DNA from: Acinetobacter guillouiae CIP 63.46
GTDB lineage: Bacteria; Pseudomonadota; Gammaproteobacteria; Pseudomonadales; Moraxellaceae
NCBI RefSeq assembly: GCF_000368145.1
Contig: NZ_KB849282.1
Span: forward strand, 124,001 to 188,000
Length of the DNA: 64,000 nucleotides
Direction: 5' to 3'
The first letter of the stretch is position 1. The number at the start of each line of letters is the position of its first letter. The translations under genes were made by a program, and so were the position numbers. Positions 20,978 to 55,944 of the stretch are shown here, in pieces. The notes under the pieces were generated by a model. It ran no database searches. It saw only the letters and a list, made by a program, of their open reading frames with translations, and was not told the origin of the DNA.

Positions 20978-21380
20978 TATAGCCAAACCACCTAATTACT
21001 CATACAAGTGATTTACATCAAGCCATTGATCATAAATAAAGCTTATTTTTTTATGAACTTTTAGAAACTGTTGGTTATCAATTCATTTTTTTGTACTTTT
21101 GAATCATAGATGGTTGTTCTATCGTGTGGCGACATGGATGTCGCCGTTGGGCGGGGGTACAGGACGTACCCCTCGCCCAACTGAAGATTTTTGTCATCTT
21201 TTCATCTCTGAAAAGTGAGGCATCGCCTACGCAATGGTATTTAAACTTTGAATGTAAGGTGTGGCATTGCAAGCTTTTTTATAATTAAACAATTTATTTT
21301 TCCATTCAATTGATTTAATTAGAAATATCAATCAAGAGAAGTTATATTCTTGTGTATGAGTTTTTGACAGGTTGACTATA
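20978..21380 (+). mobile_element. MITE-like non-autonomous element, copy 1 (403 bp)
   Basis: This element is repeated at 55543-55944 in the same orientation with high identity along its whole length. The ends are imperfect inverted repeats: left TATAGCCAAACCACC..., right end read on the other strand TATAGTCAACCTGTC..., and a shared ACTCATACA block follows in both. Both ends begin TATAG, compatible with a TA target duplication of the Tc1/IS630 type. Inside are a perfect hairpin GGCGACAT-GG-ATGTCGCC (21128-21145) and a longer stem at 21146-21181 (8 bp, one bulged T, 7 bp, loop AGGAC). There is no transposase gene. The small open frame on the minus strand is not convincing coding sequence. Confidence 0.78.
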
Positions 21381-55542: not shown

Positions 55543-55944
55543 TATAGTCAAACCACCTAATTACTCATAAAGTGATTTCTATCAAGTCATTGACCATCAA
55601 TGAAGCTTATGTTTTTTATGAACTTTTATAAACTGTTGGTTATCAATTCATTTTTTGTACTTTTGAATCCTAGATGGTTGTTCTATCGTGTGGCGACATG
55701 GATGTCGCCGTTGGGCGGGGGTACAGGACGTACCCCTCGCCAAACAAAAGATTTTTGTCATCTTTTCATCTCTGAAAAGTGAGGCATCGCCTACGCAGAG
55801 GTATTTAAACTTTGAATGTAAGGTGTGGCATTGCAATCCTTTTACAATCAAACAATTTATTTCCCCATTCAATTGATTTAATTAAAAATATTAATTAAGA
55901 GGAATTATACTCGTATGTCTGAGTTTTTTGACAGGTTTGCTATA
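55543..55944 (+). mobile_element. MITE-like non-autonomous element, copy 2 (402 bp)
   Basis: Second copy of the element at 20978-21380, same orientation. Left end TATAGTCAAACCACC; right end on the other strand TATAGCAAACCTGTC. The hairpin GGCGACAT-GG-ATGTCGCC (55692-55709) is identical; the longer stem starting at 55710 has lost one outer pair compared with copy 1. It lies between bfr and the oligosaccharyltransferase gene, its right end abutting that gene's stop codon at 55945-55947. Confidence 0.78.

Follow-up and report, generated by a model that had tools for sequence, protein, structure and literature searches.

The repeat described here joins two layers with different histories: arms that are supported as an IS630-type MITE and, inside them, a structured RNA core that is older than the MITE and independent of it. 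We place the probability that an IS630 MITE is stacked on an Acinetobacter-wide RNA of predicted CsrA-binding type at about 0.6. On the best reading, the core represents an undescribed Acinetobacter lineage of predicted CsrA-binding-type RNA that the MITE has amplified here. Direct support comes from the copies and their ends, the IS630 partner in other species, covariation, conservation of GGA, a strand bias in the nested helices, and the distribution.

The two copies and their mobile ends

The window, that is, the whole stretch of 64,000 nucleotides analysed, carries two copies of a ~402-bp repeat in the same orientation, at 20978-21380 and 55543-55944. An earlier note had described them as non-coding, with related inverted ends and internal hairpins, and the letters confirm this as an accurate description. 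With copy 1 as genome query, the copies are 91% identical over the whole query. Copies 1 and 2 begin with TATAGCCAAACC and TATAGTCAAACC and end with GGTTGACTATA and GGTTTGCTATA, respectively; both contain GGCGACAT-GG-ATGTCGCC as well as GGGGTAC-AGGAC-GTACCCC. Their features are listed below.

20978..21380, + strand: MITE copy 1, with IS630-type ends TA/TAG...CTA/TA, holding the RNA core
20978..20989, + strand: left terminal repeat of copy 1, TATAGCCAAACC, resembling IS630 ends of other Acinetobacter
21119..21234, + strand: structured RNA core of copy 1 (model R2: 116.5 bits)
21128..21145, + strand: HP1 of copy 1, with loop AUGGAU at 21134-21139, candidate CsrA-type site 1 (letters, alignments)
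21146..21181, + strand: HP2 of copy 1, with GGA at 21162-21164, candidate CsrA-type site 2, here CAGGAC
21183..21188, + strand: linker GAAGAU of copy 1, 5' strand of the pseudoknot, partner 21204-21209, with one A-C mismatch and one G-U (letters; helix by covariation)
21194..21218, + strand: HP3 of copy 1, whose loop at 21204-21209 pairs back to 21183-21188 (letters, alignments)
21261..21269, + strand: 3' tail motif of copy 1, GTGGCATTG, GGCNRTG-like (letters, locus comparison)
21370..21380, - strand: right terminal repeat of copy 1, TATAGTCAACC on the - strand (letters)
55543..55944, + strand: MITE copy 2, holding the RNA core (letters, genome search)
55683..55798, + strand: structured RNA core of copy 2 (model R2: 113.2 bits)
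55692..55709, + strand: HP1 of copy 2, with loop AUGGAU (letters)
55710..55745, + strand: HP2 of copy 2, with GGA in the loop and one outer pair broken (letters, model R2)
55747..55752, + strand: pseudoknot linker AAAGAU of copy 2, partner 55768-55773, with one A-C mismatch (letters; covariation)
55758..55782, + strand: HP3 of copy 2 (letters, model R2)

The repeat is not confined to these two copies. Used as query against all 4.9 Mb of the window's genome (G000, in 16 contigs), copy 1 returned 31 matches, the five best besides copy 1 lying far above chance (E = 2.7e-157 to 2.1e-131). Nine of the 31 run nearly from end to end (starting no later than query position 9 and reaching at least 400), and the rest are partial or core-only. 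When 14 copies are aligned, TATAGTCAAACCACCTAATTATTCAT... and ...TTTTTGACAGGTTGACTATA stand out as the conserved ends; several copies have lost one end by decay, and intact ends have TA on both sides. The element has the attributes of a MITE: it is short, lacks a transposase and carries terminal repeats common to an IS630 element. Its 109-nt left end matches 17 of 173 Acinetobacter genomes, in several of them over the terminal 29-31 bp only and in multiple copies.

Full-length elements with the same ends occur in other Acinetobacter. Three of the eight loci examined (L207, L208 and L209) hold complete elements of 889-890 bp, each bounded by inverted TATAGTCAAA ends and containing two reading frames. 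The second frame matches NCBIfam NF033545 of the IS630 family (6.9e-33); for the first, no IS630 model scored above its cut-off. The L208 element sits in bioB, and the BioB frame becomes continuous again when its flanks are joined through one TA (GINVCSGGIVGLGEG), which indicates that the insertion duplicated TA. The ends shared with the NF033545 elements and the TA duplication in bioB support the arms as an IS630-type MITE, as the earlier note had proposed. The outer ends would belong to a non-autonomous IS630-family element moved in trans by a TA-inserting IS630 transposase. The only close relative of this transposase found in the window's genome is decayed (G000:C4:1545130-1545542; 69 and 53% identity) and has a MITE piece ~400 bp away; at C12:54085 there is a more distant relative (29% identity) with an open frame of 193 aa. 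In an assembly of 16 contigs, IS copies may be missed.

A 414-aa transposase located between two MITE ends (G000:C4:406232-407848) was rejected as the autonomous partner. Its best matches are IS4-family models, below their cut-offs, with PF01609 just above cut-off, and inspection by eye shows a separate pair of inverted ends; it is therefore read as an IS interrupting a MITE copy (L200, G000:C4:405900-408200), the partner being IS630.

Smaller elements were also seen. L212 (1501-1596) holds a 96-bp IS630-type mini-element with little beyond the two shared ends. A small palindromic unit, ATGAG...CGCAAG (e.g., ATGAGCAAAAACAAAGCACTGCTTTGTTTGCAGCGCAAG), forms a nested mini-repeat: in many copies it interrupts the HP2/linker/HP3 region or takes the place of part of it, and both orientations occur. 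It is present in the copies L007-L011, L013, L017 and L019 of the window's genome and also in L039, L293 and L297.

Structure and distribution of the core

The core consists of HP1, HP2 and then HP3, whose loop pairs with the linker as a pseudoknot (linker AAAGGAU, AAAAGAU, GAAGAU... with HP3 loop AUCCUU, AUCUUU, AUCUCU...), and it measures ~117-165 nt across Acinetobacter. Against dinucleotide shuffles, the fold of the copy 1 core has z = -6.1 on the + strand and -7.6 on the - strand, and that of copy 2 has -4.8 and -6.5, respectively.

Covariation was assessed in two alignments. Alignment A2 (MAFFT) comprises 20 cores picked by hand from 55 matches, with truncated copies and copies with linker inserts excluded, and its structure was drawn by eye from the same 20 sequences; 96.8% of its cells are paired, and both partners vary in 23 of 36 pairs. 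Shuffles gave 0/500 for each of both measures and 1/500 for pair types, and slid controls reached 37-46%. Alignment A3 (106 rows, 97 distinct cores, 93 loci) was aligned by the model and leans towards it; here, 97.9% of cells are paired, 24 of 36 pairs change on both sides, and 527 cells show two-sided change against 120 in shuffled alignments, with all five measures at 0/500 and slid controls at 36-46%. The 93 loci are mostly top-scoring places of covariance model R1, plus eight from one A. baumannii record, so that conservation may be overstated. Covariation in stems can also stem from template switching in quasi-palindromes.

The pseudoknot helix is 92.1% paired in A3. Its pair 75-97 has no unpaired cell (GC 44, AU 34, GU 8, UA 5), and its pair 74-98 is broken in 27 of 95. 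The nested helices contain 36 G-U against 6 A-C (p ~3e-6), or 21 against 6 (p = 0.006) when column pair 48-56 is left out, and this excess of G-U favours an RNA of the + strand. The corresponding figures for the pseudoknot, 16 to 20, are uninformative and give no indication of strand. For an outer stem closing the core, columns 6-8 pair partly with 122-124, without covariation.

The distribution separates the core from the arms. In a DNA search of the genus with copy 1, matches were found in 129 of 175 Acinetobacter genomes; beyond G000, G058 and G063, the matches listed cover query ~100-311, which is the core region without the MITE ends. Of 348 Moraxellaceae genomes, 156 contain the core according to model R1, built from 20 cores; six of these belong to other genera (G176, G179-G182 and G188; E 1e-7 to 1e-4), and the other 150 are among the 175 Acinetobacter genomes. 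The window's genome has 31 R1 matches at E <= 0.1 and 25 at E <= 0.001, and one 4.1-Mb A. baumannii record holds eight cores. Since the genus and family scans scored a limited number of candidates per genome (10 for R1, which R1 matches often reach), the copy numbers are minimums. An exact core-derived pattern, searched in one genome for each of 84,980 species, found 53 stretches, all titled Acinetobacter. None of 50,697 phage records contains the element, viral contigs gave no matches to one exact HP3 pattern, and one of 72,556 plasmid records has it, a 4.1-Mb A. baumannii record.

MITE ends are absent around the core in the other species whose flanks were read. The earlier note had treated the core as part of the MITE, and this portion of its interpretation was not supported; its IS630 MITE was, as was its suggestion of a possible folded RNA or protein-binding core. 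The latter, with covariation in the hairpins, proved better founded than the note had ventured, the core being older than the arms and present in far more genomes.

Cores also occur in inverted pairs, arranged 5'-to-5' with spacers of 14, 58 or 63-64 nt (L151, L159, L180, L182, L183, L148, L103, L106 and L185), and a single 3'-to-3' pair lies in L096. Outside Acinetobacter, an HP3-like module with a possible pseudoknot was seen in 13 of 39 matches; 0/2000 swaps reach the observed sum, and several clearly mis-picked hairpins are included, so that this is a lead only.

GGA loops, genomic setting and competing readings

The two hairpins HP1 and HP2 each present GGA, mostly as ANGGA. The HP1 loop is ANGGAU in 96 of 97 distinct cores and AYGGAY in 85, its variable N being U in 81, A in 7, C in 5 and G in 4. 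GGA is found in the HP2 loop in 96 of the 97 and ANGGA in 82; both window copies have CAGGAC there, not ANGGA. Weaker-scoring copies can lose GGA in one loop (L041, L045, L047 and L300). The SELEX consensus of CsrA is RUACARGGAUGU, its hexaloop is ANGGAN, and a CsrA dimer can bridge sites spaced 26-30 nt apart. Paired loop GGA at this candidate dimer-bridging spacing, the mark of the class of CsrA-binding sRNAs, is present in all 97 cores (GGA-to-GGA 26-30 nt, about 28 nt). As far as sequence goes, the loop pattern is that of CsrA/RsmA sites, and the core is most likely a CsrA-binding RNA by prediction. PMC4333381 describes such sites as hairpins whose loops contain GGA and which usually come in twos, since CsrA acts as a homodimer.

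Of 173 Acinetobacter genomes, 171 have a CsrA gene, and the assemblies in which it was missed are 64 and 80% complete; the one Acinetobacter CsrA sequence read looks ordinary. Presence of the gene does not discriminate, since genomes without a core match also have csrA. CsrA is reported to be essential for the growth of A. baumannii on rich media (PMC12802169).

If the + strand of this older RNA inside the MITE is transcribed, each of its two GGA hairpins would most likely dock on one face of a CsrA dimer, and the pseudoknot may help the RNA fold or protect it. With such binding, the copies would sequester or tether CsrA, and the MITE would have multiplied these sites in the window's genome. 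A possible but doubtful extension is a transposon-propagated CsrA sponge, in which most Acinetobacter species would hold many twin-GGA, pseudoknotted copies titrating CsrA and at least one lineage would have put copies into an IS630 MITE; were this true, copying the MITE would change how many binding sites a global regulator encounters. If CsrA binds, its antagonists in Acinetobacter would extend beyond one or two dedicated sRNA genes to numerous dispersed elements. With its many orthologous sites and natural MITE copies, the genus is well suited to testing the proposed CsrA role.

The cores lie on the 3' side of genes. Context was counted with a simple ORF caller and, with the core taken as +, the neighbour strands at 93 loci are (-,-) in 41, (+,-) in 31, (+,+) in 20 and (-,+) in one. 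None of the 54 non-redundant host gaps is divergent, compared with 9 of 75 in the background (p = 0.01), and among 39 non-redundant tandem gaps, 26 are antisense and 13 sense (p = 0.05). As the + strand is antisense to both neighbours in 26 of 39 tandem sites, it would need its own promoter. A sigma-70 scan upstream of the cores at 59 loci found no excess (best 5.1 vs. shuffled 5.4) and a TATCGT block is only weakly -10-like, so a promoter belonging to the core was rejected as a candidate. A GGCNRTG-like tail follows the core after 25-34 nt in 38 of 59 non-redundant loci (101 sites reduced by flank similarity) and occurs in 5 of 59 in the 80 nt upstream.

Several core sites recur between species, including one next to a gene that we take to be mpl and one between genes that are presumably xseB-like and aqpZ-like, all named by eye. 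The ruvA-ruvB gap was surveyed in 30 of 173 genomes, chosen as the best RuvB protein matches and not as a random draw. It holds a core in 17, always in sense; a different structured insert in seven, six of these with an HP3-like hairpin; short spacers of 12, 28, 65 and ~20 nt (the last by eye) in four; the tail only in one; and an unparsed sequence in one (L292). The model confirms 14 of the 14 ruvA-ruvB cores given to it and three more from the same places. In these orthologous cores, the HP2 and pseudoknot sequences are strongly diverged and still paired (by eye), with pseudoknot variants that include GGG/CCC and UGGG/CCCA, as expected of selection on structure; template switching is an alternative source. 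The alternative insert (L280, L281, L282, L285, L289, L291 and L293) consists of a long stem, GTCATTCGC...GCGAATGAC, with an internal AGGA, followed by an HP3-like hairpin except in L293.

The avoidance of divergent promoter gaps also suits a different reading, which we consider rather unlikely: that the core is a REP/BIME-like DNA palindrome (cruciform, nucleoid or terminator) at gene 3' ends and not a regulatory RNA. Inverted core pairs 14-64 nt apart, the lack of a promoter signal and the folding of both strands point the same way, whereas the 36:6 wobble asymmetry in favour of a + strand RNA in the nested helices and the covariation of the pseudoknot argue for RNA. No hairpin-plus-T-run terminator was noticed by eye. 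The Y1/RAYT transposase (PF01797) is present in 35 of 173 genomes and has no match in the window's genome, where RAYT/REP mobilisation was thus rejected.

The core could also be a regulatory RNA whose GGA loops serve another protein or base-pairing with a target. GGA loops with conserved flanks could suit other ligands, and HP3 and the linker are conserved too, but the free N in ANGGA, the pairing of the sites and their spacing fit CsrA, leaving this reading unlikely. We give quite a low probability to a plain MITE with its hairpins as transposon baggage and the wide core matches as old decayed MITEs; the 31 genome matches with conserved IS630 ends agree with it, yet it is contradicted by a core in 150 of 175 genomes against a left arm in 17 of 173, several of these matching over 29-31 bp only. 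Compensatory change with fixed GGA loops is unexpected of decaying DNA, and cores at shared orthologous sites such as ruvA-ruvB also speak against it. Identity with C4 antisense RNA or the A. baumannii Group 1 sRNA family, which is likewise multicopy and structured according to PMC5320573, is extremely improbable and was rejected by position and sequence, as the four RF01695 matches in the window's genome (L060-L063: C6:196113, C4:2293410, 2080844 and 1777550) differ in sequence and overlap none of the 31 element matches.

Comparison with known RNA and MITE families

At gathering thresholds, Rfam 15 finds nothing in the window, and a search of 14 loci at E <= 1 gave one match, far below threshold. 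At the level of the order, model R2 matched 21 of 390 genomes, the window's genome included. Of the 28 R2 loci outside the family, 13 were run against Rfam; 18 of the 20 matches listed are to TwoAYGGAY (RF01731), in 11 of the 13 loci, with eight at or above 43 bits and a best score of 59.7. The best R2 match to a TwoAYGGAY locus is L303, at 44.6 bits, against 43.1 for the same locus under RF01731. In the opposite direction, copy 2 matches RF01731 on the same strand at a non-significant 16.8 bits (E 4.2; threshold 43), copy 1 has no match at E <= 5, and none of 20 Acinetobacter loci matches at E <= 10. The link rests on R2 matching TwoAYGGAY loci and on shared anatomy, and the Acinetobacter core is, judged from these comparisons, a divergent relative of TwoAYGGAY and not a member by the curated test.

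Like the core, TwoAYGGAY (clan CL00106) has a pair of hairpins in tandem, and their loops are of the A(Y)GGA(Y) type. In contrast, the Acinetobacter core has no supported enclosing stem, carries HP3 and the pseudoknot directly after HP2, and is MITE-carried in the window's genome. Earlier papers list TwoAYGGAY in human gut, gamma-Proteobacteria and Clostridiales (Weinberg et al., PMC2864571) and, in 2014, as a family of unknown function with CsrA binding only proposed (PMC4333381). In L313, which comes from a genome in another family of the order, the surroundings of a TwoAYGGAY match include a C4 antisense RNA at a distance of ~400 nt and, nearby, a weak c4-a1b1 target motif (matches at 1476-1598, 1856-1903 and 1991-2075).

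No description of the element was recognised in the main texts of open-licence papers; by these papers and Rfam 15, a multicopy structured RNA of 150 of 175 Acinetobacter genomes appears undescribed. With the CsrB/CsrC/RsmX/Y/Z sRNAs, the core shares GGA in hairpin loops and at least two sites per RNA; it differs in having only two sites per unit, many dispersed copies and no promoter found, and the cores gave no Rfam matches to these families. The arms agree with IS630-family ISs and MITEs in the TA target, the same terminal sequence and NF033545 in the second frame of the autonomous form, whereas the MITE of the window additionally carries an unrelated conserved RNA. MITEAba12 is also an Acinetobacter MITE but is described in PMC6382973 as 113 bp long, with GGCTTTGTTGCACAAA ends, 9-bp duplications and ISAba12 as partner. 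The QMITE-derived sRNAs of Coxiella, as described in PMC10969869, provide a parallel in which MITEs give rise to small RNAs; the Acinetobacter RNA, in contrast, is more widespread than the MITE that carries it.
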